From contig NZ_CP077800.1 of NCBI RefSeq assembly GCF_019112525.1, forward strand, positions 1,426,001 through 1,490,000: 64,000 nucleotides of DNA, read 5' to 3'. A program made the position numbers and the translations under genes. This document shows positions 659 through 30,130 of the stretch, one piece after another. The DNA comes from Modestobacter sp. L9-4 (lineage in GTDB: Bacteria; Actinomycetota; Actinomycetes; Mycobacteriales; Geodermatophilaceae). The notes beneath the pieces were generated by a model, which was given only the letters and a program-made list of their open reading frames with translations, was not told the DNA's origin and made no database searches. Numbering within the stretch: position 1 is the first letter of the stretch; every line of letters begins with the position of its first letter.

Positions 659-3040
659 GTGCGTTCCCGTACCCGTACCCCCCGCCGGACGGTCGCCGCG
701 CTGGCCGCGGCCACCGTCCTGCTCGGCGGCGTCCTGACGCTGGCCCAGCCGCCCGCCACGGAGACGCCGCTCACGACAGCCGCAGACGACGCCGGGGTGA
801 CGGCCCTGCCCCCCGCCTACGGGTGGTTCGAACCGGACACCGTCTGGAACGGCGACTTCGGCGACCCGACCGTGGTCCGGGTGGGGAACACGTACTACGC
901 CTACGCCTCACCGGTCGGTGGCCGGGTGCTCCCGGTGCTGACCAGCACCGACCTGCGGACCTGGAAGGTCCACCCCCGGTACGCCCCGCCCGGGAGCGTG
1001 CCGTACCAGAACGGCTTCGACCCGCTGACCGACCGCTCCGTCCCGGCCGAGGTGCAGAGCTGGGCGTCGAGGCTGCCACTGAGCACGCTCGACCGTGGCT
1101 GGAGCGCCTTCAACAACAACGACGCCCTGGTCAGCCGTCCGACCTGGGGCGTGCGGGCAGCCGACTCCTGGGTCGACCGCAACTACTGGGCGCCGGGCGT
1201 GTTCCCGATCGGCAGCACCTGGTACGCCTACTCCCCGGTCCTGTACTCCGACGGGCGCTTCTGCCTGACCGTCGCCTCGGCCACCTCGCCGCTGGGCCCC
1301 TTCCGTGACGTCAGCGGTGGCGGGCCGATCCAGTGCGAGGACGCGGCGGTCGACCCGGGAGGCTCGATCGACCCGGCCGGCTACCACGACGACGCCACCG
1401 GCAAGGACTACCTGATGTGGAAGTCCTCGGGGAAGGTCGACCACCACCCGTCCTCCCTCAAGGCCGTCGAGCTGGGCAGCAACGGCCTGCCGAAGCCGGG
1501 CGCGCCCGTCGTGAAGCTGCTCGAGACCGACTCCGCCTCCCCGTGGGAGGGCTTCACCATCGAGAACCCCTCGATGGTGAGGTTCGGCGGCACGACCTAC
1601 CTCTTCTACTCGGCCAACCTCTCCGACCCGCTGGACCGCATCGGGCACAGCAGCTACGCCAGCGGCTACGCGATCTGCCGCAACGGACCACTGGCCCCCT
1701 GCGAGCGGGCCGCGGCGAAGGTGCCGCTGCTGTCGAGCAACGGGACGGCGCAGGGGCCGGGCGGCTCCTCGGCGTTCGTGGCCGCCGACGGCAGCCTTCG
1801 CATGGCCTACGCGACGTTCTGGCTCGGTGAGAACATCGGCGGCCCGGTGCCCAACCCGCGCCGGATGGGCATCGCCACGCTGCTGCGCAACGGCGACGGC
1901 ACGCTCCGGGTCGCCGACGGCACCGGCCCGGTCTCCCCGGTGCAGGCGCTGTGGGCCTCGCGTGGCGGCGCGGCCGGCGCCCTGGGCCCGGCGGTGACCG
2001 CCGAGACCAACTTCGGCGACGTCGCGGCGGCCGAGCACTTCCGCAACGGCTCCGTCTACTGGTCCACGACCACCGGCGCGCACTCGGTGCAGGGGGCGAT
2101 CCGCGACAAGTGGGCCTCGCTCGGCTGGCAGGGCGGGACACTGGGCTTCCCCACCACCGACGAGGTCGCGCTGGCCGGCGGGGCGGTGAGCCACTTCCAG
2201 GGCGGCTCCGTCTACTGGTCGCCGGGGGGCGGCGCACACGTCGTCCGTGGGCTGATCCGGGACGCCTGGGCGGCCAGCGGCTGGCAGGCCGGCCCGCTGG
2301 GCTACCCGGTCACCGACGAGGTCGCGCTGCCCGGCGGCGGCGCGGTCACCCACTTCCAGGGCGGGTCCGTCTACTGGTCGCCGAGCACCGGCGCGCACGC
2401 TGTCCGCGGGGCCATCCGTGACCTGTGGGCGGCCAACGGCTGGCAGGCCGGGTCGCTGGGCTACCCGGTCACCGACGAGGTCGCGCTGCCCGGCGGGGCC
2501 GTCACCCACTTCCAGGGCGGCTCGGTCTACTGGTCGGCCGCCACGGGCACGCACGTCGTCCGTGGGCTGATCCGGAGCGCCTGGGCGGCCAGCGGCTGGC
2601 AGGCCGGCCCACTGGGCTACCCGACCACCGATGAGCTCCCCCTGCGCAACGGCGCCGTCACCCACTTCCAGGGCGGCTCCGTCTACTGGTCGCCGGCCAC
2701 CGGTGCGCACGTCGTCCGCGGGGCCATCCGCGACGTGTGGGCGGCCAGCGGCTGGGAGGCCGGCCCGGTCGGCTACCCCACCACCGACGAGCTGGCGCTG
2801 CCCGGCGGCGCCGCGGTGAGCCACTTCGAGCGCGGCTCGGTCTACTGGTCGCCGGCCACCGGCGTGCACCTGGTGATGGGCGCGATCCGCGACCGCTGGA
2901 ACGAGCTGGGCGCCGAACGGTCGTCGTTGGGCTTCCCGACCAGCGACGAGTACGCCGGCTCCGGCGGTCGGCGCACCGACTTCCAGGGCGGCTCCATCGT
3001 GTGGACGCCCAGCACGGGAGCCGTCGTCCTCGCCCGTTGA
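659..3040 (+). CDS. Secreted GH43-like five-bladed propeller protein with LGFP repeats
   Basis: A GTG start at 659 with GGAGG four bases upstream is chosen because it opens directly on a signal peptide (RSRTRTPRR, then a hydrophobic Ala/Leu/Val core ending near AQPPA). In-frame codons upstream give no sensible protein. About 793 residues. Residues ~55-430 resemble the family 43 glycosidase propeller: FGDPTVVRVGNTYYAYASP, then NYWAPGVFPIGSTWYAY, then WEGFTIENPSMVRFGGTTYL. Such enzymes usually cleave arabinan or xylan; the substrate here is unknown. About seven LGFP repeats (period near 52 residues; GFPTTDEV, GYPVTDEV, GYPTTDEL) follow, ending in a variant repeat with GFPTSDEY. LGFP repeats are thought to hold proteins on the actinobacterial cell wall; there is no sortase motif. 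Likely role: wall-bound polysaccharide hydrolase or binder. Confidence 0.82.
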   Translation: MRSRTRTPRRTVAALAAATVLLGGVLTLAQPPATETPLTTAADDAGVTALPPAYGWFEPDTVWNGDFGDPTVVRVGNTYYAYASPVGGRVLPVLTSTDLRTWKVHPRYAPPGSVPYQNGFDPLTDRSVPAEVQSWASRLPLSTLDRGWSAFNNNDALVSRPTWGVRAADSWVDRNYWAPGVFPIGSTWYAYSPVLYSDGRFCLTVASATSPLGPFRDVSGGGPIQCEDAAVDPGGSIDPAGYHDDATGKDYLMWKSSGKVDHHPSSLKAVELGSNGLPKPGAPVVKLLETDSASPWEGFTIENPSMVRFGGTTYLFYSANLSDPLDRIGHSSYASGYAICRNGPLAPCERAAAKVPLLSSNGTAQGPGGSSAFVAADGSLRMAYATFWLGENIGGPVPNPRRMGIATLLRNGDGTLRVADGTGPVSPVQALWASRGGAAGALGPAVTAETNFGDVAAAEHFRNGSVYWSTTTGAHSVQGAIRDKWASLGWQGGTLGFPTTDEVALAGGAVSHFQGGSVYWSPGGGAHVVRGLIRDAWAASGWQAGPLGYPVTDEVALPGGGAVTHFQGGSVYWSPSTGAHAVRGAIRDLWAANGWQAGSLGYPVTDEVALPGGAVTHFQGGSVYWSAATGTHVVRGLIRSAWAASGWQAGPLGYPTTDELPLRNGAVTHFQGGSVYWSPATGAHVVRGAIRDVWAASGWEAGPVGYPTTDELALPGGAAVSHFERGSVYWSPATGVHLVMGAIRDRWNELGAERSSLGFPTSDEYAGSGGRRTDFQGGSIVWTPSTGAVVLAR

Positions 3041-3302: not shown

Positions 3303-3923
3303 ATGTCCGCACCATCCCGCAGTCGGGCCGGCGTGACGCTCGTGTCGGTCCTCGTGCTGGCCGTCGTCGCCGCAGCCGTCCTCCTTGGCCGGGGTGACGC
3401 GCCCGGCACCGCGGCCGCGGCCGGACCGGCCACCAGCACCGCGACCACCACCGCCACGGCCACGGCCGCTGAGCAGCCGTCCGCGGCCGCCGCCACCTCC
3501 ACGGCGCCCCGGACCACCGCCGCCACGACCTCGTCCACCGTCGTGCCGGCCGCGACGGCCTCGCTCGGGCCGACCGAGATCCCGACGGCCGTCGCGACCG
3601 ACCGGCCCGACACCGCCGCCCCCGGCAGCGCCGACGTCGTCATCACCTACGCCGGCTGGGACGCCGGCACCGCCTCGGTCGAGGTCAACGCCTTCGTGTC
3701 CGGCGTCATCGAGGACGGTGGCACCTGCACCGCGACGCTGACCCTCGGGTCGACCACCCGCACCGTCACCGCACCGGCCGCCGGCGACGCCACCACGACC
3801 GGCTGCGCGCCGATGATCGTCACCGGCGACCAGCTCTCCGCCGGTGACTGGCAGGCCGTCGTGTCCTACACCTCCGCCACGGCGGAGGGGCGGTCCCCGG
3901 TGACCGGGGTGTCCGTCCCGTGA
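3303..3923 (+). CDS. Small secreted Ser/Thr/Ala-rich protein, coupled to the downstream LGFP gene
   Basis: ATG at 3303 is preceded by a purine-rich GGGGGAA. The 206-residue product has one N-terminal hydrophobic helix (about residues 11-28, TLVSVLVLAVVAAAVLL) that is a signal anchor or uncleaved signal peptide. A low-complexity Ala/Thr linker of about 90 residues follows, then a C-terminal region of about 100 residues (from DVVITYAGWDAGTASVEV) that looks like a beta-sandwich with two cysteines, probably a disulfide. I do not recognise a family. The stop codon overlaps the GTG of the next gene by 4 nt, so the two are translated together and the protein is probably a partner of that LGFP protein at the surface. 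Confidence 0.65.
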   Translation: MSAPSRSRAGVTLVSVLVLAVVAAAVLLGRGDAPGTAAAAGPATSTATTTATATAAEQPSAAAATSTAPRTTAATTSSTVVPAATASLGPTEIPTAVATDRPDTAAPGSADVVITYAGWDAGTASVEVNAFVSGVIEDGGTCTATLTLGSTTRTVTAPAAGDATTTGCAPMIVTGDQLSAGDWQAVVSYTSATAEGRSPVTGVSVP

Positions 3924-6900
3924 TCCCCCGGCCGGGGGCGTCGTCCTGGGCCTGGGCACGGCGGCTCGGACTGCTCGTCGCCGTGCTGGCGCTCGCCCTG
4001 GTCGCGGTGCTGGGCGGGGCCAGCTCGCCGGCCGGTCGCAGTCCGGCCGACACGACCGCAGCCACCGCCCCCGCCCTGGCGCTGGCTGCCGACGCGAGCC
4101 AGTTCCGGCCGGGCAACATCATCAGCGACAACATGTTCTTCGACGGCGCGGCGATGGCCGAGCCGGAGATCCAGGCCTTCCTCACCGCCAAGGGCGCCAA
4201 CTGCCGGGCTGCGGCGATGCCCTGCATCAAGGACATCCGTCTCGACACCCCGACCATCGCCGCCGACGCCTACTGCAGCGGCTACGCCGGGGCGCGGCAG
4301 GAGAGCGCCGCCTCGGTCATCGCGAAGGTCGGCCGGGCCTGCGGGATCAGCCAGCGGGCGATCCTCGTGATCATGGAGAAGGAGCAGGGGCTCATCCGCA
4401 AGACGAGCCCCACCGTGCGCGGCTACGACGCCGCGCTGGGCTTCGCCTGCCCGGACACCGCACCCTGCGACCCGGCCTACGCCGGGTTCGCCAAGCAGAT
4501 CTACTACGGCGTCCGCGTGTTCAAGGTCTACGCGGCGACCGCCGGCACCCGCAACTACCGCGCCGGGCGCAACAACTACGTGCAGTACAACCCGGACGCC
4601 GGCTGCGGCGGCTCCCAGGTCTACATCGAGAACCAGGCGACGGCCGGCCTGTACGTCTACACGCCCTACCAGCCCAACGCCGCCGCACTGGCCGCCGGCT
4701 ACGGCAGTGCTCCGTGCGGCGCGTACGGCAACCGCAACTTCTGGCTCTACTACACCGACTGGTTCGGCTCGACGCAGTCGCCGGGCGGCAACGCCGTCGT
4801 CACGCGCGCGCTGGCACCGGGCGCCTCGACGGTGCTGGGCACCGCCAGCGGCAGCGTCGTCTGCGGCCTGGCCGACGGCGGCTGCTACCAGGCCTTCGCC
4901 AAGGGCTCCGTCTACTGGTCACCCGGCACCGGCGCGCAGATCGTCAAAGGGCTGGTCCGCGACCGGTGGGCGGCGCTGGGCTGGGAGACGGGCTCGCTCG
5001 GGTACCCCACGGGCGAGGAGGTCTGCGGCCTGGTGGGCAGTGGCTGTTATCAGAACTTCCAGAAGGGGATGGCCTACTGGTCCCCCGCCTCCGGCGCCTG
5101 GTCGGTCCGCGGGCTGATCAAGGACGCCTGGGCCGCCTCCGGCTGGGAGGGCGGCGCTCTCGGGTACCCCCTCTCCGACGAGAGCTGCGGCCTGGTCGGC
5201 GACGGCTGTTGGAGCCGGTTCCAGAAGGGCTCGATCTACTACGCCCCGGCGACCGGCACCCAGACCGTCCTGGACGGCCCGGTGAGCGACCGGTGGGCAG
5301 CCCAGGGCCGCGAGAACGGCGCGCTGGGCTACCCGGTCAGCGGCACGATGTGCGGTCTGGCCGGCGGCGGTTGCTGGCAGGTGTTCCAGGGCGGCTCGGT
5401 CTACTGGACCCCGGCCACCGGCGCCCGGGTCGTGCAGGGCGACGTCCGCGACCACTGGGGCGCCCTCGGGTGGGAGACCGGCACGCTCGGCTACCCGGTC
5501 GGCGAGCAGGTCTGCGGCCTGGCCGGCGGCGGTTGCTACCAGGACTTCCAGAACGCGACGGTCTACGACTCCCCCGGCTCGGGCGCCTGGTCGGTGCGCG
5601 GGGTGATCAAGGAGAAGTGGGGCACCTGGGGCTGGGAGGCCGGCTCGCTGGGCTATCCCGTGTCCGACCAGGTCTGCGGCCTGAGCGGCGGGGGGTGCTT
5701 CAGCGAGTTCCAGCGCGGCGCCGTCTACTGGTCGCCGGCCACCGGCGTGCACGTGGTGGCCAGCGGTCCGGGCCGGGACGCCTGGGCCGCCCAGGGCTGG
5801 GAGAGGGGCGCGCTGGGCTACCCCGTGGGCGACACCGTCTGCGGGCTGACCGGCGGCGGCTGCTTCACCTCCTTCCAGCAGGGCACGGTCTACTCCTCCA
5901 CCGCCACCGGCGGGCAGGTCGTGGCCAACGGCCCGCTGCGCGACGTCTGGGCCGCGCAGGGCTTCGAGACCGGCGCCCTGGGCTACCCGACCGGCAACGC
6001 CGTGTGCGGCCTGCCCGACCGCGCCTGCACGCAGAGGTTCCAGGGCGGCACCGTCACCACCTCAGCGACCACCGGAACCCACGCGGTGACCGGGGCGGTG
6101 CACGTGGCCTGGACCCGCTGGGGCGGGGTGTCCGGCGACCTCGGCCACCCGACCGACGACCAGCGGTGCGGGTTGGCCGCCGGCGGCTGCACCCAGACGT
6201 TCCAGGGCGGCAGCGTCTACGACTCCGCCGACACCGACGCCCGGATGGTCCGCGGCGCGATCCGCGACGTCTGGGTGTCCCGAGGCGCGCAGGACGGCGC
6301 ACTGGGGTACCCGACCAGCGACGAGGTGTGCGGCCTGGTCGGGGGCGGCTGCTTCACGTGGTTCCAGGGCGGGGCCGTCTACTTCTCCCCTGGCACCGGC
6401 GTCCGCGTGCTGACCGGACCCGTGCTCGACAAGTGGAGCACCCAGCGCTACGAGACCGGTCTGCTGGGCTACCCGGTCGCCGACCAGGTGTGCGGTCTGA
6501 CCGGCGCCGGCTGCGCCCAGCAGTTCCAGGGCGGGTCGGTCTACTGGACCGCGTCGACCGGGGCCCGGCAGGTGATCGGCGCCGTCCGCGACGCGTGGGT
6601 CGCACAGGGCGCCGAGCGCGGCGCGCTGGGCTACCCGCTGGCCGACGAGGTCTGCGGGCTGGCGCGCAACGGCTGCTACCAGGCGTTCCAGGGCGGGTGG
6701 GTCTACTTCAGCCCGGCCGGGGGCGGTCACGCGCTGACCGGTCAGCTCCAGGCCGCGTGGGCGGCCCTCGGCTGGGAGAACGGCGCCCTCGGCTACCCGA
6801 CCGGGGATGCGGTCTGCGGGCTGACCGGCGGCGGCTGCTCGCAGCGGTTCGAGCGGGGCAGCCTCTACTGGACGGCGGGCACGGGGGCGCACCTCGTGCG

Positions 6901-7222
6901 GGGTGCGGTCCGCGACTCCTGGACGGCGCAGGCCGCGGAGCAGGGCCCCCTGGGCTACCCGGTCACCGACGAGGTCTGCGGCCTGGCCCGCAACGGCTGC
7001 TACCAGGCGTTCCAGAACGGCTGGACGTACTTCAGCCCGGCCACCGGCGCACATCCGCTGAGCGGCCCGGTCCAGGCCGCCTGGGCCGCGCAGGGCTGGG
7101 AGACCGGGAAGCTGGGCTACCCGACCGGCGACCCGGTGACCACCGGCGCGACCGTCACCCAGCGGTTCGAGGGCGGCACCCTGGTGCTCGACCGGCAGTC
7201 GGGCCGGGTCACCCGCGGCTGA
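3920..7222 (+). CDS. Large secreted LGFP protein (about 15 repeats) with an N-terminal lysozyme-like domain
   Basis: The GTG at 3920 overlaps the preceding stop (GTGA). 1100 residues. A signal peptide (about residues 1-45) precedes a domain of ~230 residues starting QFRPGNIISDNMFFDG and containing AILVIMEKEQGLIRKTSP; this block is seen in actinobacterial LGFP proteins and, with its Glu-containing helix and aromatic-rich end (NFWLYYTDWFGST), suggests a lysozyme/glucosaminidase-like peptidoglycan module. Catalysis is inference. Then come about 15 repeats of ~54 residues. Fourteen begin with a Cys-pair signature, VCGLxGGGC, absent from most repeats in the other LGFP proteins of the window. The last repeat (GYPTGDPVTTGATVTQRFEG) lacks the cysteines and acts as a cap. 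Probable cell-wall-bound surface protein or autolysin. Confidence 0.8.
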   Translation: MIPRPGASSWAWARRLGLLVAVLALALVAVLGGASSPAGRSPADTTAATAPALALAADASQFRPGNIISDNMFFDGAAMAEPEIQAFLTAKGANCRAAAMPCIKDIRLDTPTIAADAYCSGYAGARQESAASVIAKVGRACGISQRAILVIMEKEQGLIRKTSPTVRGYDAALGFACPDTAPCDPAYAGFAKQIYYGVRVFKVYAATAGTRNYRAGRNNYVQYNPDAGCGGSQVYIENQATAGLYVYTPYQPNAAALAAGYGSAPCGAYGNRNFWLYYTDWFGSTQSPGGNAVVTRALAPGASTVLGTASGSVVCGLADGGCYQAFAKGSVYWSPGTGAQIVKGLVRDRWAALGWETGSLGYPTGEEVCGLVGSGCYQNFQKGMAYWSPASGAWSVRGLIKDAWAASGWEGGALGYPLSDESCGLVGDGCWSRFQKGSIYYAPATGTQTVLDGPVSDRWAAQGRENGALGYPVSGTMCGLAGGGCWQVFQGGSVYWTPATGARVVQGDVRDHWGALGWETGTLGYPVGEQVCGLAGGGCYQDFQNATVYDSPGSGAWSVRGVIKEKWGTWGWEAGSLGYPVSDQVCGLSGGGCFSEFQRGAVYWSPATGVHVVASGPGRDAWAAQGWERGALGYPVGDTVCGLTGGGCFTSFQQGTVYSSTATGGQVVANGPLRDVWAAQGFETGALGYPTGNAVCGLPDRACTQRFQGGTVTTSATTGTHAVTGAVHVAWTRWGGVSGDLGHPTDDQRCGLAAGGCTQTFQGGSVYDSADTDARMVRGAIRDVWVSRGAQDGALGYPTSDEVCGLVGGGCFTWFQGGAVYFSPGTGVRVLTGPVLDKWSTQRYETGLLGYPVADQVCGLTGAGCAQQFQGGSVYWTASTGARQVIGAVRDAWVAQGAERGALGYPLADEVCGLARNGCYQAFQGGWVYFSPAGGGHALTGQLQAAWAALGWENGALGYPTGDAVCGLTGGGCSQRFERGSLYWTAGTGAHLVRGAVRDSWTAQAAEQGPLGYPVTDEVCGLARNGCYQAFQNGWTYFSPATGAHPLSGPVQAAWAAQGWETGKLGYPTGDPVTTGATVTQRFEGGTLVLDRQSGRVTRG

Positions 7223-7306: not shown

Positions 7307-7816
7307 TCAGTCCGACAGCTGCTGCTGCAGACGCGCGTCGCGCTCCACCACGGAGTCGGCCAGCGCCGCCTGGAAGCGCTCGACGGCCGCGCGCAGCTCC
7401 GGGTCGCCGGCGGCCAGGATGCGCACGGCCAGCAGCCCGGCGTTGCGGGCGCCGCCGATCCCCACGGTCGCGACCGGCACGCCGGCCGGCATCTGCACGA
7501 TCGACAGCAGGCTGTCCATGCCGTCGAGCTGGCCCAGCGGCCGCGGCACACCGATCACCGGCAGCGGCGTGGCGGCAGCGACCATGCCGGGCAGGTGGGC
7601 CGCTCCCCCGGCGCCGGCGACGATGACCCGCAGCCCGCGACCGGCCGCGGCCTCGGCGTAGTCGAGCATCCGCCGCGGCGTGCGGTGCGCGGAGAGCACG
7701 TGCACCTCGTACGGGACGCCGAACTCGGTGAGTGCCTCGGCGGCCGGGGTCATGGTGGGCCAGTCGGAGTCGCTGCCCATGACGATGCCGACGACGGGGT
7801 CCCGGGTGTCGCTCAT
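7307..7816 (-). CDS. purE: N5-carboxyaminoimidazole ribonucleotide mutase
   Basis: 169 residues, the normal size for class I PurE. It carries [10 protein letters not shown] near the N-terminus, the active-site [11 protein letters not shown], and [13 protein letters not shown]. PurE converts N5-CAIR to CAIR, the step after PurK in purine synthesis. ATG at 7816 lies only 4 bp after the purK stop, so the two are one operon, with purK first. The last residues after about 150 are less conserved. Confidence 0.97.
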
Positions 7817-7820
7817 CTGC

Positions 7821-9026
7821 TCAGTGCTCCTCGTCGAAGGCGAACGCAGGGTCGACCACGCCGTCGGCGAGGTACCGCGCCGCCGCCACGGCCCGGGCGC
7901 GGACCTCGGTCAGGTCGGTGCCCAGTGCGGTGACGTGCCCGAGCTTGCGGCCCCGGCGCTGCCCCTTGCCGTACCAGTGCAGCTTCACGTCGGGCCAGTG
8001 CGCCATCAGGTGGTGCACGCGCTCGTCGACACCCGGCCCGGCCCACGCCTCGTCGGCCGCCTCGCCGCCGAGCACGTTGGCCATCACCACGACCGGCGCG
8101 GTCATCGCCGTGGAGCCCAGCGGGTAGTCCAGGACGGCGCGCAGGTGCTGCTCGAACTGGCTGGTGCGAGCGCCCTCGATCGTCCAGTGCCCGGAGTTGT
8201 GCGGGCGCATGGCCAGCTCGTTGACCAGGACGCCGTCGGCGGTCTGGAACAGCTCGACGGTGAGCATGCCGACCACGCCGAGGGAGTCGGCCAGCCGCAC
8301 GGCGAGCTCCTGGGCGGCGGTGGCCAGCTCGTCGTCCAGGTCCGGCGCCGGCGCGTACACCTCGTTGCAGACGCCGTCGCGCTGCACGGTCTGCACGACC
8401 GGCCAGACGGCGACCTGCCCGAACGGCGAGCGGGCCACCTGGGCGGCGAGCTCGCGGACCATGGGCACGCGCTCCTCGGCCAGCAGCGTGCCGTGCCGCT
8501 CGAGCAGGACGGCGACCTCGTCGGGCCCGGGGACGACGAACACGCCCCGGCCGTCGTAGCCACCGCGCGGGGTCTTCAGCACGATCGGCCACCCGACCTC
8601 GTCGGCGAAGGCGGTCGCCTGGTGCACGGTCGCGACCTCGGCCCAGGCGGGCTGCGGCTCACCGGCCGCGGCGAGCGCGCGCCGCAACACGAGCTTGTCC
8701 TGGGCGTGCACCAGCGCGGCCGACCCGGGGGCGACCCGGTGGCCGGCGTCCTCGAGTGCCCTCAGGTGCGCGGTCGGCACGTGCTCGTGGTCGAAGGTGA
8801 CCACGGAGGCGCCCTCGGCCAGCCGCTGGAGGTCGGCCAGCTCGCGGTGGTCGCCGAGCTGCACGTCGGCGGCGACCAGCGCGGCCGACTCGTCGGGCGA
8901 GGCGGCCAGCACCCGCAGGGACTGGCCCAGCGCGATGGCCGCCTGGTGGGTCATCCGGGAGAGCTGGCCGCCGCCGACCATGGCCACGACGGGCAGCCCG
9001 GTGCGCGGGTCGGTGGGTGCGTTCAT
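7821..9026 (-). CDS. purK: N5-carboxyaminoimidazole ribonucleotide synthase
   Basis: 401 residues, ATP-grasp enzyme. N-terminal [12 protein letters not shown] is the family nucleotide-fold start; DHEHVP, the ATP-grasp loop [14 protein letters not shown], and [17 protein letters not shown] are diagnostic. It makes N5-CAIR from AIR, bicarbonate and ATP and feeds PurE, which is encoded immediately downstream. ATG at 9026 is supported by a TAGCGT hexamer 9 bp upstream, suggesting a leaderless or nearly leaderless mRNA. Confidence 0.97.
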
Positions 9027-9035
9027 CGGGGCAGG

Positions 9036-9041
9036 ACGCTA
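9036..9041 (-). promoter_or_regulatory. Putative -10 (TAGCGT), purK, near-leaderless
   Basis: TAGCGT reads on the minus strand, with 9 bp between the hexamer and the purK ATG and no Shine-Dalgarno sequence between them. Confidence 0.5.
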
Positions 9042-9063
9042 CCGGGAGGGCACCGGCACCACG

Positions 9064-9103
9064 CACGAGAGGGAGCCGTCCGGGCGGACGGCTCCCTCTC
9101 GTG
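9064..9103. terminator. Perfect 18-bp hairpin after ppm1
   Basis: Arms 9064-9081 and 9086-9103, loop GGGC. It lies between ppm1 and the promoter of purK on the minus strand and separates the two transcription units. No T-tract. Confidence 0.65.
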
Positions 9104-9150
9104 GGACGACGCCGACGCCGGTCGGGCGCGTCAAGGTCAGGTGGGGCAGG

Positions 9151-9969: not shown

Positions 9970-9977
9970 CGGCAGCG

Positions 9978-10224: not shown

Positions 10225-10230
10225 CTTCAC

Positions 10231-20373: not shown

Positions 20374-20377
<4 letters not shown>

Positions 20378-21185: not shown

Positions 21186-21251
21186 GCCCCACCGGTCACA
21201 GCGGTCCCAACCGTTCCGCATGCCGGTGGCGCGGCAGGCAGACTGCCGGTG

Positions 21252-23318
21252 ATGCGCCGCTCAGCTGTCCTGCTCACCGCCCTGGTGGCACTGTCGTTCC
21301 TGACCGGTGGTGGCGGGGTCGCCCGGGCGGACGCCGCCCAGTCCCTGGTGGACGCCGGCAGTGCCGAGGCCGCGGCCCGGGGCACCACCGCCGGCATCGC
21401 CGTGTACGACCGGCGCACCGGCCGCTACAGCGACAACGGCCCCACCGCCCACCAGTGGTTCGGCTCCGCGTCGCTGGTCAAGCTGTTCATCGCCGACAGC
21501 GTGCTGCGGCGGGCACGCACCGGCGAGATCCGGCTCTCCGACGCCGACCGGAACTCCCTCGGGCTGATGCTGCGCTCCTCCGACGACGCCGCGGCCAGCA
21601 GCCTGTGGAGCCGGTTCGGCGGCAGCGGGATCGTCACCGACGTCAAGGCCCGCTACGGGCTCGCCGAGACCGCGGCGCCGGCGAACCCGCGGTACTGGGG
21701 GCTCACCCAGGTCACCGCCCGGGACATGACGGGCTTCTACGACGGCATGCTCTCCGGTCGCGGGGGCCTGGACGGCGCCGACCGCGACTTCATCGTCGAC
21801 CAGCTGCGCCGGGCCACCGACCGCGGCACCGACGGCGTCTACCAGTGGTTCGGGCTGCACGACGGCCTGCCGCGGGACAGCGTGGGCGTCAAGCAGGGCT
21901 GGATGTGCTGCTTCTCCGACGGCTTCATCTGGCGGCACTCCACCGGCCTGGTCGGGCCCGACGCGCGGTACGTGGTCGTCGTCCTGGCCCGGGACGAGGG
22001 GTGGCAGGGCGCTGCGCACACCGAGGCGTCCACGACACGGATCGTGCAGCGGATGTTCCCGGCCGGGCTGGTGCCGCGGGTGCAGGGTCTGATCGGCGAC
22101 CTCTGGTACCAGCTGGGCGGCGCCGGCAGCGTCCTCGGCCTGCCCACCGGTGAGGAGGTCCCCCTGCGCGGCGGCGCGTTCAGCTTCTTCGAGCGCGGAG
22201 CCGTCTACTGGTCGCCGCCCACCGGGGCCCACGAGGTCCACGGGCAGGTCCGGGCCGCCTTCGACCGGCTGGGGGCGGAGAACGGGCTCCTCGGCTACCC
22301 CACGAGCGACGAGCTGCCGCTGGCCGGCGGCGCGCTGGGCCGGTTCCAGGGCGGCTACGTCTACTGGTCACCGGCCACCGGGCCGCACGAGGTGCACGGA
22401 CAGGTGCTCGCCGCCTACAGCCGGCTCGGGTACGAGCGCGGTCTGCTCGGCTACCCCACCAGCGACGAGGTGCGGCTCCGCAACGGCGCGCTGGGACTCT
22501 TCCAGGGCGGCTACGTCTACTGGTCGCCGGCCACCGGGCCGCACGAGGTGCACGGCCAGGTGCTCGCCGCCTACAGCCGGCTCGGGTACGAGAACGGGTT
22601 CCTCGGCTACCCCACCAGCGACGAACAGCGGCTGGCCGGCGGTGCGCTGGGCCGCTTCCAGGGCGGCCACGTCTACTGGTCGACCTCCACCGGGGCCCAC
22701 GAGGTGCACGGCCAGGTGCTCGCCGCCTACAGCCGGCTGGGGAACGAGCGAGGCTGGCTGGGCTATCCGACCAGTGACGAGATCAGCCTGTACGGCGGTG
22801 CGCTCGGCCGGTTCGCCGGCGGTTCGGTCTACTGGTCGCCCGGCACCGGCGGGCACGCCCTGGGCGGCGCGCTGCTCACCGCGTACACCTCCAGCGGTGC
22901 CGAGCGTGGCCTGCTCGGCTACCCGATCAGCGACCCCTACGCGGTCGGCACCGGCACCCGGGTCGACTTCGAACACGGGAGTCTCACGCTGACGTCCTCG
23001 GGCCAGGTCGTCCGAGTTGACGCACCGAGCCCGACGGCCACCGCCCTCACGCCGCGGACCGCGCCAGCACCCCCACCGGCCCCGGCACCCGCGCCTGCGC
23101 CTGCGCCTGCGCCGGCACCCGTGCCCGCGCCTGCACCCGCGCCCGCCCCTGCGCCTGCCCCCTTGCCGTCGGCTCCGGTGGTACCGGCCGAGCCGCAGCC
23201 CGGTGGGCTCGCACCGGTCACGACCCCGACACCCCCGGCCGTCGCGCCCACGACCACCGCCACGCCCATGCCGGAGTCCCCGGCCGCTGAGCCGTCGCCG
23301 ACCACCGCGGCGCCGTGA
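21252..23318 (+). CDS. Secreted beta-lactamase-fold serine hydrolase with LGFP repeats and Pro/Ala tail
   Basis: ATG at 21252 (a GTG lies one codon earlier) gives a signal peptide RRSAVLLTALVALSFLTGG cut near ARADA. Residues ~30-265 resemble a class A beta-lactamase/PBP-like fold: SLVK at 74-77 (SxxK nucleophile motif), SDD at 110-112 (SDN position, shortened spacing) and VGVKQGWM where KTG is expected. The changed second and third motifs make classic beta-lactam hydrolysis doubtful. Six LGFP repeats follow (GYPTSDEL, GYPTSDEV), with EVHGQVLAAYSRLG in several, then a tail of alternating Ala-Pro. The stop overlaps the lipoprotein start downstream (GTGA). Possibly a wall-bound peptidoglycan or ester hydrolase. 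Confidence 0.8.
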   Translation: MRRSAVLLTALVALSFLTGGGGVARADAAQSLVDAGSAEAAARGTTAGIAVYDRRTGRYSDNGPTAHQWFGSASLVKLFIADSVLRRARTGEIRLSDADRNSLGLMLRSSDDAAASSLWSRFGGSGIVTDVKARYGLAETAAPANPRYWGLTQVTARDMTGFYDGMLSGRGGLDGADRDFIVDQLRRATDRGTDGVYQWFGLHDGLPRDSVGVKQGWMCCFSDGFIWRHSTGLVGPDARYVVVVLARDEGWQGAAHTEASTTRIVQRMFPAGLVPRVQGLIGDLWYQLGGAGSVLGLPTGEEVPLRGGAFSFFERGAVYWSPPTGAHEVHGQVRAAFDRLGAENGLLGYPTSDELPLAGGALGRFQGGYVYWSPATGPHEVHGQVLAAYSRLGYERGLLGYPTSDEVRLRNGALGLFQGGYVYWSPATGPHEVHGQVLAAYSRLGYENGFLGYPTSDEQRLAGGALGRFQGGHVYWSTSTGAHEVHGQVLAAYSRLGNERGWLGYPTSDEISLYGGALGRFAGGSVYWSPGTGGHALGGALLTAYTSSGAERGLLGYPISDPYAVGTGTRVDFEHGSLTLTSSGQVVRVDAPSPTATALTPRTAPAPPPAPAPAPAPAPAPAPVPAPAPAPAPAPAPLPSAPVVPAEPQPGGLAPVTTPTPPAVAPTTTATPMPESPAAEPSPTTAAP

Positions 23319-23848
23319 GGCGCGCCCTGCTCGTCAGCGCCGTCCTCCCGGCCGTGCTGCTCGCGGCCGGCGGCTGCTCCAGCGGGCCGTCCGCGCCGGT
23401 GGCCGGCCCGGGCTCCTCCCCCGCCGCGTCGGCGTCGTCAGCCCCCTCCCCGGTGGACCCGGTACCGACTCCGACGGACCCGGTGGCCACACCGGCCGGC
23501 CCCGCAGAGGCCTCCGCGCTCGCCGCACTGCCGACCGGACCGGCCACCGGGACGGCGGTGCTCGCCTACGCCGGCGTCGGCGAGGTCCGGGAGCCCTTCA
23601 CCGGCACCTGCACCCACGACGGCGGCACCACGCGCATCGAGGGCACGGCCGACACCGCCCGGATCACGCTCACCGTCGCCCCGGCCGGCGCGACGGTCGT
23701 GCTGGAGGACGTCGGCTTCGCGGCGACCTCCACCCTGGCCACCGGCCGGTACGACGTCGCCGGACGTCATCTGTCCCTCGCCGCGCCGCTGACCTCCGGT
23801 GACCAGCCGTCGGGCTCGATCGAGCTGGAGCTCGACTGCGGGAGCTGA
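23315..23848 (+). CDS. Small lipoprotein coupled to the LGFP/serine hydrolase gene
   Basis: GTG at 23315 overlaps the previous stop by 4 nt. 177 residues with a lipoprotein signal: LLAAGGC, lipid-modified Cys about residue 21, then a Ser/Pro/Ala linker. The ~95-residue C-terminal domain (from GTAVLAYAGVGEVREPF) has one Cys early (GTCTHDGG) and one at the very end (ELDCGS), weakly like the beta-sandwich of mycobacterial LpqH-type lipoproteins. That likeness is by eye only. The pairing with an LGFP gene repeats the arrangement at 3303-7222, so it is probably a membrane-anchored partner. Confidence 0.7.
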   Translation: MRRALLVSAVLPAVLLAAGGCSSGPSAPVAGPGSSPAASASSAPSPVDPVPTPTDPVATPAGPAEASALAALPTGPATGTAVLAYAGVGEVREPFTGTCTHDGGTTRIEGTADTARITLTVAPAGATVVLEDVGFAATSTLATGRYDVAGRHLSLAAPLTSGDQPSGSIELELDCGS

Positions 23849-23885
23849 GGACCCTGACCCCGGCGACCGCCGTCCGAGCGCTCGT

Positions 23886-23891
23886 TAGAGT
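23886..23891 (+). promoter_or_regulatory. Putative -10 (TAGAGT) for accA3
   Basis: TAGAGT is 30 bp before the accA3 GTG; GAGGGAG at 23908-23914 is its ribosome-binding site. Unlike many neighbours, this gene has a short leader. Confidence 0.45.
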
Positions 23892-23921
23892 CCTCGCGAC
23901 GTCTTTCGAGGGAGTGCGAAC

Positions 23922-25679
23922 GTGCAGAAGGTCCTGATCGCCAACCGCGGCGAGATCGCGGTGCGGGTGGCGCGTGCCTGCCGGGACGCCGGGCTGACCA
24001 GCGTCGCGGTGTACGCCGAGCCGGACCGGGACGCCCTGCACGTGCGCTCCGCCGACGAGGCCTTCGCCCTCGGCGGCACCACCCCGGGTGACTCCTACCT
24101 GGTCATCGACAAGATCATCGACGCCGCCCGGCGGTCCGGCGCGGACGCCGTCCACCCCGGGTACGGCTTCCTCTCGGAGAACGCCGACTTCGCCCGGGCC
24201 GTGATCGACGCCGGGCTGACCTGGATCGGCCCCTCGCCGCAGGCGATCGTCGACCTGGGCGACAAGGTGGCCGCCCGGCACATCGCGATGGCTGCCGGCG
24301 CCCCGCTGGTGCCCGGCACCAAGGACCCGGTCGAGAACGCCGACGAGGTCGTCGCCTTCGCCCGTGAGCACGGGCTGCCGGTGGCCATCAAGGCGGCGTT
24401 CGGTGGCGGCGGGCGTGGGCTGAAGGTGGCCCGCACGCTCGAGGAGATCCCCGAGCTGTTCGACTCCGCCGTCCGCGAGGCCGTCTCCGCCTTCGGCCGC
24501 GGCGAGTGCTTCGTCGAGCGCTTCCTGGACCGGCCGCGGCACGTCGAGGCGCAGGTGCTCGCCGACACGCACGGCAACGTGATCGTGGTGGGCACCCGCG
24601 ACTGCTCGCTGCAGCGCCGCAACCAGAAGCTGGTCGAGGAGGCACCCGCGCCGTTCCTCACCGCCGAGCAGCGCGAGCGCATCCACTCCTCGGCCAAGGC
24701 GATCTGCCTGGCCGCGGGCTACGTGGGCGCGGGCACCGTCGAGTACCTGGTGGGCACCGACGGCTCGATCTCCTTCCTGGAGGTCAACACCCGGCTGCAG
24801 GTCGAGCACCCGGTCAGCGAGGAGACCGCCGGCATCGACCTGGTGCGCCAGCAGTTCCGCATCGCCGAGGGCCTGCCCTTGGAGATCACCGAGGACCCCA
24901 CGCCCCGCGGCCACAGCATCGAGTTCCGGATCAACGCCGAGGACGCCGGCCGCAACTTCATGCCCGCGCCCGGCCCGGTCACCCGGCTCGTCGTGCCGCA
25001 GGGCCCCGGCGTGCGCTGGGACTCCGGCGTCGAGGCCGGCGGCGAGGTGGCCGGCGCGTTCGACTCGATGCTGGCCAAGCTGATCGTCACCGGCGCCACC
25101 CGGGCCGAGGCGCTGCAGCGGGCGGCCCGGGCGCTGGACGAGCTGGTCGTCGAGGGCATGCCCACCGTCGTCCCGTTCCACCGGGCCGTGGTGCGCGACG
25201 CGGCCTTCACCAGCGAGCCGTTCACCGTGCACACCCGCTGGATCGAGACCGAGTGGGACAACCAGGTGCCGGCCTGGTCGGCTGCACCGGTGGAGGGCGA
25301 GGAGCCCGAGCCGCGGCAGACCGTCGTCGTCGAGGTCGGTGGCCGCCGGCTGGAGGTCTCGCTGCCGGCCGGCCTGGCCGCCGGCGGTGCGGCGCCCGTG
25401 GCGGGCGCCGCGAAGCCGCGCAAGCGCTCGGGTGGCTCGGGCGGTCAGGCGGCCTCCGGGGACTCCCTCACCGCGCCCATGCAGGGCACGATCGTGAAGG
25501 TCGCGGTGGCCGACGGCGCCACGGTCGCGGCCGGCGACCTCGTCGTGGTGCTGGAGGCGATGAAGATGGAGCAGCCGATCACCGCGCACAAGGCGGGTGT
25601 CGTGTCTGGGCTGTCGGCCGAGGTCGGCGCCGCCGTCACCAGCGGCGCGGTCCTCTGCACCATCACCGACCCGAGCTGA
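23922..25679 (+). CDS. accA3: Acyl-CoA carboxylase alpha subunit (biotin carboxylase + BCCP)
   Basis: GTG at 23922 with a good ribosome-binding site. 585 residues. The biotin carboxylase domain (1-~450) starts [20 protein letters not shown] and has the ATP-binding [25 protein letters not shown] and the KLIVTG region. A short linker rich in Gly/Lys leads to the biotinyl domain, with the biotin-accepting Lys in LEAMKMEQP near the C-terminus. It carboxylates its own biotin and serves AccD/AccE; BirA at 17898 is the modifying enzyme. Confidence 0.96.
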
Positions 25680-25718: not shown

Positions 25719-27659
25719 TCAACGGCTCGAGACCGCCCCCTTCGCCGGCGTCCAGGTGATGGAGCCGAAGCGGAAGTCACTGCGCCGCCCACCGGGGACG
25801 TCGTACTCCTCGCTCGTCGGGTAGCTGAGGACCGAGTCCTGCCAGCCCATCGACGCCCACCTGTCCCGGATCGCACCCCAGACGGCATGCGCACCGGTGA
25901 ACGGCGTGAAGTAGATCGAGCCACCCTGGAAGTGCACGACGACGTTGGTGGTGCTCGGCCGGAGGAGGGTCTCGTCGGTGAGCGGGTAGCCCAGTACGCC
26001 GTCCTGCCAGCCGAGGGAGGCCCAGCGGTCGCGGACCGCGCCCTTGACGACGTGCGCACCCGTGGCCGGCGACCAGTAGACCGAGCCGCCCTGGAAGTGC
26101 GTCACCGCACCCCCGGCGAGCACGACCTCGTCGGTGGTCGGGTAGCCGAGAGGCCCTCCCTGCCACCTCTGGGACGCCCACTTGTCCCGGATCGCACCCC
26201 GCACCGCGTGCGCACCGGTCGCCGGCGACCAGTAGACCGACCCACCCTGGAAGTGCGTCACCGCACCCCCGCCCAACCCCACCTCGTCCGTGGTCGGGTA
26301 GCCGAGCGTCCCGTCCTGCCAGCCGAGGGCCGCCCACCTGTCCCGGATCGCACCCCGCACCGCGTGCGCACCGGTCGCCGGCGACCAGTAGACCGACCCA
26401 CCCTGGAAGTGCGTCACCGCACCTCCGCGCAACGCGACCTCGTCGGCCGTCGGGTAGCCGAGCGTCCCGTCCTGCCAGCCGAGGGCCGCCCACCTGTCCC
26501 GGATCGCACCGCGCACGAGGTGCGCACCGGTGCCCGGCGACCAGTAGAGCGAGCCGCCCTCGAAGTGGGCCACCGCTCCGTCGCGCAGGGTGACCTGGTC
26601 GGTGACCGGGAAGCCCAACTGGTCGAAGGCGTCGTCATCATCGAGCCAGCGGTCCTCGACCGGCCCGGTGAGCCAGTGGGCGCCGGTGGTCGGCGTCCAG
26701 TACATCGTCCCGCCCTGGAACTCCTGGTAGCAGCCGTCCTCGGGCAGCTCGCCGCACGTCTCCTGGCCGAGCACTCCACCCAGGGGACCGGCGGATCCGC
26801 CGGCAGCCTCGTAGGCCTCGCCGATCGCCCCTCCGGACAGCAGAGGACCCGAGGGGACCGGGACCGGCTGCGGGGCCCACGGGGGCGTCGGCTCCCCGGC
26901 TCCGGGGGCCACCGGGGAGGTCGGCGCGCTCTGCCGGCTCTCACCGGCTGCGTTGGTGGCGGTGACCGTGAACGTGTAGGCCGTCCCCTGGGTCAGGTCC
27001 CGTACCCAGGCGGCACGTCCCGGCGACTCCAGGAGCACCTCGTAGCGCACCGGTTGCGGCACCGCGGACCCGCTCGCGTAGGCCCGGAGCGTGTAGCTGT
27101 CGATCGGGTAGCCGTTGCCTGCCGGGACCGGCCAGCTCACCAGCACGCTGCCGGGGAGCGGAGACGCCGTCACGGACGAGGGCGGGTCGGGAACGGCTCC
27201 GCCGGTGGTGTGCGTGGTGAGGGGGACGCTCGGGTACCCGGGTCCGACCTCGTTGGCGGCGGTCACCGACACCCGGTAGATCGAGCTGCGCACCAGCCCG
27301 GTCACCCGAGTGGTGGTCACTGCGCCGGGGACCGTCACGCTGACGGTGTCGGACTCGACGCCGGCCCGCCACACACCTGCGGTGACCGTGTAGGACGTCG
27401 GGGACCCGCCCTCCGCCGAGGGCGCGGTCCACGAGACGGTCAGGCTCTCGTCGTCGCCGGACGCGGTGACCCCGGTCGGCACGTCCGGGACGGCGACGGC
27501 CGCAGCACCAGGGGCCCCGACGACGTCCGGCTGCCCGCCGGACCCGGCCGGTGCGGCACCGGCCGGGGACGCCGTGAGCAGCAACGGTCCGGTGACCAGG
27601 AACGCGGCCAGGGCCAGCAGCGAGGCTCGGCTGCGCCTCGGGGGGTGGTGACGCGACAT
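25719..27659 (-). CDS. Secreted protein with two FN3 domains and seven LGFP repeats
   Basis: ATG at 27659 gives a clear signal peptide (SRHHPPRRSRASLLALAAFL, cut near SPAGAAPA), and a TACTGT hexamer lies 7 bp upstream. 646 residues. Two fibronectin type III domains follow (about 50-150, DVPTGVTASGDDESLTVSW; and 155-255, DPPSSVTASPLPGSVLVSW). About seven LGFP repeats come next; the first has a Cys pair (TCGELPEDGC) and the last is the cap form with SYPTSEEY. No catalytic module is visible, so it is probably a wall-bound adhesin or scaffold. It lies 68 bp downstream of the subtilase/LGFP gene in the same direction and shares its FN3-LGFP half, suggesting duplication. Confidence 0.82.
   Translation of the reverse strand: MSRHHPPRRSRASLLALAAFLVTGPLLLTASPAGAAPAGSGGQPDVVGAPGAAAVAVPDVPTGVTASGDDESLTVSWTAPSAEGGSPTSYTVTAGVWRAGVESDTVSVTVPGAVTTTRVTGLVRSSIYRVSVTAANEVGPGYPSVPLTTHTTGGAVPDPPSSVTASPLPGSVLVSWPVPAGNGYPIDSYTLRAYASGSAVPQPVRYEVLLESPGRAAWVRDLTQGTAYTFTVTATNAAGESRQSAPTSPVAPGAGEPTPPWAPQPVPVPSGPLLSGGAIGEAYEAAGGSAGPLGGVLGQETCGELPEDGCYQEFQGGTMYWTPTTGAHWLTGPVEDRWLDDDDAFDQLGFPVTDQVTLRDGAVAHFEGGSLYWSPGTGAHLVRGAIRDRWAALGWQDGTLGYPTADEVALRGGAVTHFQGGSVYWSPATGAHAVRGAIRDRWAALGWQDGTLGYPTTDEVGLGGGAVTHFQGGSVYWSPATGAHAVRGAIRDKWASQRWQGGPLGYPTTDEVVLAGGAVTHFQGGSVYWSPATGAHVVKGAVRDRWASLGWQDGVLGYPLTDETLLRPSTTNVVVHFQGGSIYFTPFTGAHAVWGAIRDRWASMGWQDSVLSYPTSEEYDVPGGRRSDFRFGSITWTPAKGAVSSR
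26185..26426 (-). repeat. Near-identical 156-bp tandem repeats inside the FN3/LGFP gene
   Basis: A block of more than 80 bp starting at 26185 recurs essentially unchanged from 26341, exactly 156 bp (52 codons) away. Synonymous positions match too, so the copies are recent or kept alike by recombination. Confidence 0.75.
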
Positions 27660-27727: not shown

Positions 27728-30130
27728 TCAGCGGTAGCGGACGACGGCGCCGGCCGCCGGGCTCCAGTCGATCGAGCCGCCCGCGAAGTCCGAGCGCACC
27801 CCACCGGGGACGGCGTACTCCTCGCTGCGGGGGTAGCCCAGCCGAGAGTCCTGCCAGCCCAGCGACGCCCATCGGTCACGGATGGCACCGCGGACGGCGT
27901 GTGCGCCGTTCGCCGGCGACCAGTACACCGACCCGCCCTGGAAGTGGTTCACCGCTCCCCCGGCCAGCCGGACCTCGTCGGTGGTCGGGTAGCCCAGCGA
28001 CCCGACCTCCCAGCCGTTGGCCGCCCAGCGGTCCCGGATGGCACCGCGGACGACGTGGGCGCCGGTGGCCCCGGACCAGTAGACCGACCCGCCCTGGAAG
28101 ACGTTCGCCGCTCCGCCGGCCAGGGTGACCTCGTCGGTGGTCGGGTAGCCCAGCGACCCGACCTCCCAGCCGTTGGCCGCCCACCGGTCGCGGATCGCAC
28201 CGCGCACCATGTGCGCCCCGGTGGCTCCCGACCAGTAGATCGACCCGCCCTGGAAGACGTTCGCCGCTCCGCCGGCCAGGGTGACCTCGTCGGTGGTCGG
28301 GTAGCCCAGCGGGCCCGCCTGCCATCCCAGCGCCGCCCACCTGTCGCGGACGGCGCCGCGCACCGCGTGCGCGCCGGTGGCCGGGGAGAAGTAGACCGAC
28401 CCACCCTGGAAGTGGTTCACCGCACCGCCGGCGAGCGTCGTCTCGTCGGTGACCGGGTACCCCAGCGATCCGTTGACGCCGCCCAGGGCCGCCCACCGTC
28501 CGGCGACGGCCCCACGGACCCAGTGCGCCCCCGTCGCCGGTGACCAGTACACGCTCCCGCCGGTGAACTCGCGGGAGCACCCGCCGCCGGCGAGACCGCA
28601 GACCTCCTCGGTGCGCGGGGCACCGAGCGGGCCCCGGACGCCGCCGCTCGCGTCGTAGGCACGCTGGACCGGGCTCGCGGCCACCGGCACGACCGGCGCG
28701 CTGGTCTCGCTGACCGGCCCCTGGCCCGCCGCGTTGACCGCCGCCACCTGGACCGAGTAGGCCGTGCCGTTGGTCAGCCCCGGCACGACCGCCGTCGTGG
28801 CGCCCGTCGTTCGGACCACGATGTCACCGGGTGAGGTGTGGACGGTGTAGCCGGTGATCGGGCTGCCGTCGGAGGTCGCCGCCGTCCAGGACACCTCCAG
28901 CCGGCCGTCACCCGGCCGCACGGTCACCCCGGTGGGCATCGAGGGCGTCGTCGGGGCAGGCGGCGCGTCGGCCGCTCGCAGCAGCTCGTAGCCGTCGATC
29001 AGCCCGAAGCCGGTGTCGTCGTCCCGACCGGGGGTCTCGAGGTCGATGGCGGTGGCGATCACCGCTGCCCGGACGTCGGCCACCGTCGCCGCGGGGTGCC
29101 CCTGGCGGTAGCGGGCGAGGACGGCGGCCACGAAGGGCGCGGCCATGGAGGTGCCGCTGCGGTTGGCGTAGCCGGCCGGGCCGTTGGTGGACAGGATGCC
29201 CACGCCCGGCGCGGAGACGACGTTGGTCGGGCCGGAGTAGGAGAAGGAGGCCGACACGCGCTGGTCGTCGGTCGCGGACACCGCGATCACCCCCGGCGAC
29301 GCGGCCGGGCAGTTGACCTGGTTGCCCGTCTGACGGTTGTTGCCCGCGGCGGCGACCACGACCACACCGTGGTCGACGGCGTACTGCACCGCGGTGTCGT
29401 ACTGGGTGTTGCACGGCCCTGCGAGGCTCATGTTGATGACGTCGGCACCGTGGTCGACGGCGTGGATGATGCCGCTGGCCACCGTGGAGGACGTGCCCTG
29501 CCCGTTGGCGTCCAGCACCCGGACCGGCATGACCCGGGCGGCGCTGGCACCGGCGACGCCGATCCCGTTGCCCGACACCGCCGAGATCTCGCCGGCGACG
29601 TGCGTGCCGTGTCCCTGCACGTCGCGGCAGCCGTCACCGGCGGGGTCGGCGGTGGCCGCGTCCGGGGCGAAGTCCGCGCCCAGGTCGCACCGCACGCGTC
29701 CCGGCAGGTCCTCGTGGTCGGCGGCCACCCCGGTGTCCAGGACGGCGACGAGCTGGTCGGAGCCGTCGGGTGCGCCGAGGGGCGCGGGGTCCAGCCCGAG
29801 GTCGGCCAGTGCCCACTGCTGCGCGCGACCCGGGTCGCCGGCGTCGGCGATCTGCACCGGTGTGTCGACGGAGACGCTGACGACGCCGGGCTGGGCGCGG
29901 AGCTCGGCGCGGGTGGCCGCGACGTCGGCGGGCGGGACCTCCCGGGTCACCACCTCCGCGGAGTCGTCGGTGACGACGATGGCGCTGACCGCGGTGAGGT
30001 CACCGGCCGGGGCCTCGGTGGCGGACGGGACGCCCACCTCGGCCCGGGCGGGCACGCCGGTGAGCAGCGGGACCGTCAGGACGGCCAGCAGGGCGGCGGG
30101 CAGCACGGACCTCACGCGGGGCAGGCGCAC
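27728..30130 (-). CDS. Secreted subtilisin-family (S8) protease with FN3 domain and six LGFP repeats
   Basis: GTG at 30130 has a GAGGAG ribosome-binding site and opens on a signal peptide (RLPRVRSVLPAALLAVL, ending ARA). 800 residues. A short propeptide (~45-95) precedes the S8 domain with Asp132 (AVLDTG), His174 (GHGTHVAG), oxyanion Asn (AAGNN near 264) and Ser328 (SGTSMAAPFVA), so the triad is complete. One FN3 domain (PSMPTGVTVRPGDGRLEVSW) follows, then six LGFP repeats, the first with VCGLAGGGC and the last the cap form GYPRSEEY. Likely a wall-tethered protease that could process the neighbouring surface proteins; that target is inference. Confidence 0.9.
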   Translation of the reverse strand: MRLPRVRSVLPAALLAVLTVPLLTGVPARAEVGVPSATEAPAGDLTAVSAIVVTDDSAEVVTREVPPADVAATRAELRAQPGVVSVSVDTPVQIADAGDPGRAQQWALADLGLDPAPLGAPDGSDQLVAVLDTGVAADHEDLPGRVRCDLGADFAPDAATADPAGDGCRDVQGHGTHVAGEISAVSGNGIGVAGASAARVMPVRVLDANGQGTSSTVASGIIHAVDHGADVINMSLAGPCNTQYDTAVQYAVDHGVVVVAAAGNNRQTGNQVNCPAASPGVIAVSATDDQRVSASFSYSGPTNVVSAPGVGILSTNGPAGYANRSGTSMAAPFVAAVLARYRQGHPAATVADVRAAVIATAIDLETPGRDDDTGFGLIDGYELLRAADAPPAPTTPSMPTGVTVRPGDGRLEVSWTAATSDGSPITGYTVHTSPGDIVVRTTGATTAVVPGLTNGTAYSVQVAAVNAAGQGPVSETSAPVVPVAASPVQRAYDASGGVRGPLGAPRTEEVCGLAGGGCSREFTGGSVYWSPATGAHWVRGAVAGRWAALGGVNGSLGYPVTDETTLAGGAVNHFQGGSVYFSPATGAHAVRGAVRDRWAALGWQAGPLGYPTTDEVTLAGGAANVFQGGSIYWSGATGAHMVRGAIRDRWAANGWEVGSLGYPTTDEVTLAGGAANVFQGGSVYWSGATGAHVVRGAIRDRWAANGWEVGSLGYPTTDEVRLAGGAVNHFQGGSVYWSPANGAHAVRGAIRDRWASLGWQDSRLGYPRSEEYAVPGGVRSDFAGGSIDWSPAAGAVVRYR
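28091..28310 (-). repeat. Near-identical 156-bp tandem repeats inside the subtilase/LGFP gene
   Basis: The stretch beginning at 28091 is repeated at 28247, 156 bp away, over more than 60 identical bases; a related third copy lies further 3' in the gene. This encodes LGFP units 3-5. Confidence 0.75.

Follow-up and report, generated by a model that had tools for sequence, protein, structure and literature searches.

LGFP-repeat proteins next to galactan genes in Modestobacter sp. L9-4: a conserved core and lineage-specific extras

We found that the LGFP-repeat proteins encoded in and beside a 64,000-nucleotide stretch of the Modestobacter sp. L9-4 genome (the window) form a set of two layers, a conserved core made up of an orphan-LGFP protein, its partner hyp196 and an LGFP amidase, and a group of lineage-specific extras. 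Our preferred reading, to which we assign a probability of roughly 0.55, is that LGFP acts as a wall-binding tail and that the main set belongs physically, and probably functionally, to the galactan layer in this lineage. In related bacteria, the orphan-LGFP and amidase-LGFP proteins and the small partner appear to make up a conserved component of the galactan machinery that has received little study.

The first-pass annotation had described five genes at positions 659-30130 of the window with 6-15 LGFP repeats each, and this was confirmed both by profile counts (Table 1) and by Pfam, where the five proteins scored 294-832 bits against PF08310 (curated cut-off 22). Each of them has an N-terminal hydrophobic stretch after two to five basic residues and is thus secreted-looking. 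Genes were called with simple in-house callers (the source of the starts at 27659, 30130 and 21252), so start sites, and hence overlaps, are approximate. Four of the five front ends named earlier were also borne out by Pfam, namely GH43 (89.3 bits, cut-off 32.2), Beta-lactamase2 (38.7, cut-off 22), two FN3 domains (74.8, cut-off 25) and a subtilase with FN3 (Peptidase_S8, 170.9, cut-off 21.8; fn3, 52.1), but the supposedly lysozyme-like front end of the 3920 protein had no significant family match. Similarly, four of the five proteins do end in LGFP as had been stated, but the 21252 protein does not, since about 100 Pro/Ala-rich residues lie C-terminal of its repeats. The 659 protein contains GDP at 68 and ENPS at 302, motifs that may supply the GH43 catalytic Asp/Asp/Glu, and its GH43 part aligns with 4QQS with both motifs matched. 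The SxxK, SDD and KxG motifs of the 21252 protein were found at 72, 109 and 214, and PDB sequences gave no match to this protein up to E 0.1. Subtilase motifs were observed in the 27728 protein (DTG at 132, GHGTH at 173, GTSMA at 326), which scored below the cut-off of the mycosin model. The region at 7307-25679 of the window holds PurE, PurK, GT2, GtrA, SbcCD, BirA, AccD, Maf and AccA, several of these identified by eye, in an order similar to that of the mycobacterial Rv3275-Rv3285 region, with the beta-lactamase-LGFP gene placed between Maf and AccA. An acyltransferase (Acyl_transf_3) is encoded at 11327-12955, close to the wall genes, and a wall polysaccharide is a possible substrate.

Table 1. 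LGFP genes and partner gene in window coordinates, with the sixth clustered LGFP gene given by its own locus; repeats of the five window proteins were counted with a profile built from the L9-4 genome.
Feature	Position	Strand	Remarks
GH43-domain protein, 7 LGFP repeats, secreted-looking	659..3040	+	Pfam GH43; LGFP 451.7 bits; lineage-specific extra
hyp196 partner gene	3333..3923 (ORF start possibly 3303)	+	anchor, low-complexity linker, predicted C-terminal Ig-like beta-sandwich
orphan-LGFP: Cys-rich domain (about aa 53-290), 15 LGFP repeats, secreted-looking	3920..7222	+	core member
Beta-lactamase2-family domain, 6 LGFP repeats, Pro/Ala-rich C-terminal tail, secreted-looking	21252..23318	+	
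Two-FN3 protein, 7 LGFP repeats, secreted-looking	25719..27659	-	no recognised enzyme domain
Subtilase, FN3, 6 LGFP repeats, secreted-looking	27728..30130	-	
LGFP amidase: Amidase_2, 937 aa, 10 repeats	L031:14034-16847		sixth clustered LGFP gene; 9-12 kb upstream of window

The set turned out not to be limited to five genes. A whole-genome LGFP profile search of L9-4 (one contig, 4.22 Mb) found 12 genes with 87 repeats, six of them within 42 kb at 1414.0-1456.1 kb and the other six elsewhere. When 12 genes were placed uniformly, six fell within 45 kb once in 200,000 trials. The seven LGFP genes outside the window carry Amidase_2, Ltp, GH3, YkuD, Excalibur and, in two cases, propeller-ASH architectures, with a PQQ_2 propeller above cut-off in one of the latter two. 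Two paralogues of about 1,220 residues each (L034:4803-8471 and L036:3919-7572) combine propeller, ASH and LGFP parts, and their repeats share 64% mean identity. The Amidase_2 domain of the clustered LGFP amidase scored 50.9 bits (cut-off 26), and the protein can be aligned with PGRPs, the HH and GHRD...CPG metal-ligand motifs being present.

Galactan is best known within the mycolyl-arabinogalactan of mycobacteria and corynebacteria. In L9-4, a galactan and arabinan cluster begins 1.3 kb outside the window on its upstream side and extends about 16.5 kb beyond that point, with genes for PAP2, DPPR synthase, DprE1, DprE2, LCP, AftA, the LGFP amidase, a galactan exporter, GlfT1, GlfT2 and Glf. 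Seven passed the cut-offs of NCBIfam equivalog models, namely GlfT1, DprE1, DprE2, DPPR synthase, Glf and the exporter ATPase and permease (NF050108/NF050109), while GlfT2, AftA, LCP, UbiA, PAP2 and Amidase_2 were identified by Pfam. Glf, GlfT1, GlfT2 and the exporter, the galactan part of an arabinogalactan-type wall, were thus all present. The two markers used for a mycolyl-arabinogalactan wall were not found in L9-4: the EmbABC arabinosyltransferase family (PF04602) had no match in the genome at E <= 0.001, with the control matching in C. glutamicum, and the best mycolate reductase score was 162.5 bits against a cut-off of 380, which was passed in 1 of 14 control genomes. Whole-cell galactose and arabinose are described for several Geodermatophilaceae strains in the available part of one source (PMC9686282). 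The LGFP amidase adjoins Wzm, with AftA on its other side, and the orphan-LGFP/hyp196 pair lies about 20 kb from GlfT2 and not beside Wzm. Three multi-membrane GT-C-like proteins were also observed upstream of the window (L031:4920-6467, L031:6574-8010, L042:17626-19131), two with an N-terminal DDAYITLSYA stretch and the third with LIDDAY or similar. They had no Pfam or NCBIfam match and are candidates for the furanosyltransferases missing along with EmbABC; an AftB-like identity for one of them was set aside after a PDB sequence search without a match.

Strong GlfT2 matches were found in 30 of the 56 family genomes, L9-4 included (split over two contigs in G211), and 16 of the 29 relatives, picked for long contigs and not at random, were compared over a fetched stretch of about 60 kb each (51 kb in G231 and 35 kb in G244, where contigs end). 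LGFP genes were observed in the GlfT2 stretch of 15 of these 16 relatives, the exception (G201) having galactan genes and an amidase there and no LGFP gene. Between 6 of 16 and 22 of 22 of a genome's LGFP repeats fell inside the stretch, against 0.04-0.8 expected under uniform placement. Every classifiable LGFP gene in the 16 stretches was either an orphan-LGFP gene (13 relatives) or an amidase-LGFP gene (10 relatives), one fragment cut by a contig end in G244 being left out of the classes. The pairing with hyp196 was constant: in every one of the 14 cases (13 relatives and L9-4) hyp196 lay directly upstream of orphan-LGFP and on its strand, and the caller placed a 4-base overlap between the two in 10 cases, and also in L9-4 if the start is at 3920. 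A fifteenth hyp196 copy (G196) lies close to the stretch end, its neighbour falling outside the fetched DNA. Named relatives of the 3920 protein were found in Modestobacter, Blastococcus and Geodermatophilus, and hyp196 was directly upstream of the orphan gene in seven of eight named loci, all but a Rhodoglobus MAG, although two of the eight apparently come from species also among the 16 relatives. Orphan-LGFP adjoins Wzm on the same strand in nine of the 16, and the full string of Wzm, orphan-LGFP, hyp196 and amidase-LGFP was present in seven. Other genes part the core genes from Wzm in G209, G237, G246 and G197, and in G246 the orphan pair lies away from Wzm, as in L9-4.

GH43, FN3, subtilase and beta-lactamase front ends were absent from all classifiable LGFP genes found near GlfT2 in the 16 relatives, and GH43-LGFP was observed only in L9-4 among the 56 family genomes. 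Close GH43 relatives of the 659 protein were absent from the other 55, where three weak partial matches (33-35% identity) were found, and we rejected GH43 as an arabinogalactan hydrolase common to galactan makers, as it is not conserved. These front ends favour a reading in which the five window genes encode unrelated secreted proteins that share a common tail and form no system. We consider that improbable, as uniform placement would rarely put six of the 12 genes into 45 kb and the orphan pair and amidase are conserved beside galactan genes. The earlier proposal of a dedicated envelope system is supported for the orphan-LGFP/hyp196 pair and amidase-LGFP, which are tied to galactan genes mostly outside the window, but not for the GH43, FN3, subtilase and beta-lactamase extras.

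The tails themselves were compared over 82 repeats, five short ones having been dropped. For the GH43, FN3 and subtilase proteins (659, 25719, 27728), repeat identity between proteins (56-58%) was about as high as that within a protein (52-61%). Those of the orphan protein were 42-46% identical to these three tails and 51% within, and those of the beta-lactamase protein 42-47% and 54%, respectively. Amidase repeats shared 39% among themselves, as unlike each other as they are unlike the rest. The best match lay within the same protein for 52 of the 82 repeats, and two Cys residues were observed in 13 of the 14 compared repeats of the orphan protein. These values are consistent with a scenario in which one tail was recently copied onto several new front ends, with an older core alongside.

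For the orphan front end at 3920, searches of Pfam, NCBIfam, PHROGs and PDB sequences gave nothing significant; weak matches to unrelated proteins were seen at E 0.03-0.9, and a PHROGs match at E 0.029 was disregarded. Its structural model was poor (pLDDT 58, pTM 0.62), and Foldseek returned only two matches, both non-significant and both entries of the Staphylococcus aureus GH73 glucosaminidase autolysin E. HHalign placed a K-E-Q pattern on the GH73 catalytic 'ETG' motif with 1.8% probability, in a single, weak comparison with an approximate GH73 alignment (30 loci, of which several were misframed). For these reasons we treat 'lysozyme-like' as a lead, and the likeness of the domain to lysozymes is weak. 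By contrast with that poor model, the C-terminal domain of hyp196 was modelled well (pLDDT 91.2, pTM 0.81, nearly all beta), and we confidently predict from the model an Ig-like sandwich on a hydrophobic anchor. A lipobox pattern was present in 5 of 15 hyp196 copies, and a fold search with the Ig-like domain gave generic beta-sandwich matches (best E 0.0058).

Beyond the family, we examined all 16 genomes that our class sample holds of a second family of the same order (f2), over glf-glfT2 stretches of 10-19 kb. An LGFP gene was present in 15 of the 16 stretches and amidase-LGFP in 10; the stretch without one (G149) is at a contig end. The orphan domain was found in none of these 16 genomes and in 11 of 196 class genomes, namely L9-4 and ten of another family (f33). 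Six of these ten have GlfT2, and in all six it lies 18-39 kb from the orphan domain. LGFP repeats were detected by profile on only 1 of the 15 f33 copies. Of the remainder, some lack a tail and the rest look by eye as if they carried known wall- or carbohydrate-type tails of other kinds; several f33 proteins are truncated where the fetched loci stop. The first-pass idea of an exchangeable wall-binding tail gains support from these mostly different tails on the orphan front end, from the tail similarity across front ends in L9-4 and from the literature on MytA, as far as available and discussed below. We tentatively suggest that the orphan domain may represent an undescribed family of peptidoglycan- or galactan-cleaving enzymes with a conserved K-E-Q helix, paired with its Ig-like partner at the galactan attachment site, and that LGFP may be its galactan-reading tail in the L9-4 family, a job that other tails would do in f33. 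The domain and its constant partner offer a concrete testable object.

Across the 196 class genomes, LGFP was present in 24 of 41 with GlfT2 and in 43 of 155 without it (Fisher p 0.0004), with repeat counts in this survey taken from at most 32 scored candidates per genome. Outside L9-4's own order the numbers were 7 of 24 and 43 of 153 (Fisher p 1.0), and with no association there we rejected the general rule that LGFP marks galactan makers. LGFP and AftA were both present in 18 class genomes, 17 of them in the same order as L9-4. Within the family, LGFP was lacking in 2 of 30 genomes with strong GlfT2 and 9 of 26 without (Fisher p 0.016, kinship ignored), and repeat counts showed a modest relation to GlfT2 that is not corrected for ancestry (p 0.025). 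Family genomes without any GlfT2 match had up to 35 repeats (35, 33, 31, 29 and 29), and two with only a weak match had 56 and 32. LGFP in genomes lacking GlfT2, its presence in an archaeon (Methanosarcina acetivorans) and the missing association outside the order count against an LGFP aimed at galactan. So do the six L9-4 LGFP genes located elsewhere, the distance between the L9-4 orphan pair and GlfT2, the lack of an LGFP gene at the galactan genes of G201 and the four relatives with core genes parted from Wzm. LGFP in genomes without GlfT2 and in the archaeon suits an alternative in which LGFP binds peptidoglycan or some general wall feature, its place in the galactan locus being inherited gene order with no functional link. 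This alternative seems to us somewhat unlikely, as each of two families shows LGFP linked to galactan genes in 15 of the 16 genomes compared, as the orphan domain is linked to GlfT2 in f33 mostly with non-LGFP tails, and as the arrangement varies in detail among genomes yet remains local.

The arabinan part of arabinogalactan would be a very unlikely ligand, even with AftA, DprE1/E2 and DPPR synthase adjoining the L9-4 LGFP genes: a strong AftA match (E < 1e-80) was limited to 3 of 56 family genomes and a match of any kind (E <= 0.001) to 14, 13 relatives have LGFP genes next to GlfT2 yet no strong AftA, and the fetched stretches contained DprE1 in 4 and AftA in 2 of 16 relatives. The difference between 3 of 56 for strong AftA and 30 of 56 for strong GlfT2 suggests that lineages may lose or acquire the arabinan part independently of galactan.

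The preferred galactan-linked reading can be laid out as a model. A three-gene core, consisting of the LGFP amidase (PGRP type, Ami3/Csp-like), the orphan-LGFP protein and the membrane-anchored Ig-like partner, would accompany the galactan genes, in the commonest arrangement continuing the Wzm-Wzt-GlfT1 gene string on the same strand and presumably being co-transcribed. Galactan would be made by Glf, GlfT1 and GlfT2, exported by Wzm/Wzt and then joined to peptidoglycan through the LCP protein. Once secreted, the core proteins would dock via LGFP on the galactan-bearing wall as their likely ligand and location, and remodel peptidoglycan there, catalytic activity being predicted. The GH43, subtilase and FN3 extras may have arisen in the L9-4 genome when the tail was copied onto new front ends. 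A soil actinobacterium without Emb or a mycolate reductase above cut-off, from a family in which galactan genes and LGFP enzymes stay together, makes a less complex system for studying the ligand of LGFP and the wall hydrolases that act at the junction of galactan and peptidoglycan.

Among known systems, the LGFP part of Corynebacterium glutamicum MytA/PS1 (PDB 6SWZ, 6SX4) was reportedly described by Dietrich et al. in 2020, work that we know via citing papers. The LGFP domains of MytA interact with peptidoglycan-arabinogalactan, according to the part of a later article available (PMC11299179). MytA/PS1 resembles the L9-4 proteins in its C-terminal tandem LGFP tail, and the 25719 protein matches 6SWZ (E 1.4e-38), but it has a mycoloyltransferase at the front, a domain that, like an esterase domain, was matched by no LGFP protein among the 12 of L9-4. 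The autolysin E resemblance of the orphan domain stays at the non-significant level given above. Rv3811 itself probably carries LGFP repeats. It is described as an Amidase_2 protein (PMC3987819, partial text), and loss of Ami3 in M. smegmatis had no phenotype while its overexpression impaired growth (PMC12735335, in the section available). The L9-4 amidase is of this Ami3/Csp type, combining Amidase_2 with its metal-ligand motifs and an LGFP tail beside Glf-GlfT2, the same arrangement as in 10 of 16 f2 genomes; it differs in lying between Wzm and AftA, and it has 10 repeats where the f2 amidases have 2, a number that the L9-4 profile may undercount. As to the first-pass remark that such a system was not known to be described, the modular use of LGFP as a wall tail is already in the literature, including its use as an interchangeable C-terminal module of phage endolysins and GH70 GtfD enzymes (PMC3314691, PMC11299179). 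Unlike the L9-4 set, the LGFP-tailed endolysins and GtfD are not connected with the orphan domain or with any galactan locus in the accessible parts of these sources. Wall binding by LGFP is already published, and what appears new, as far as our literature searches reach, is the linkage of LGFP to galactan genes in a family that lacks Emb and mycolate genes, together with the orphan pair.
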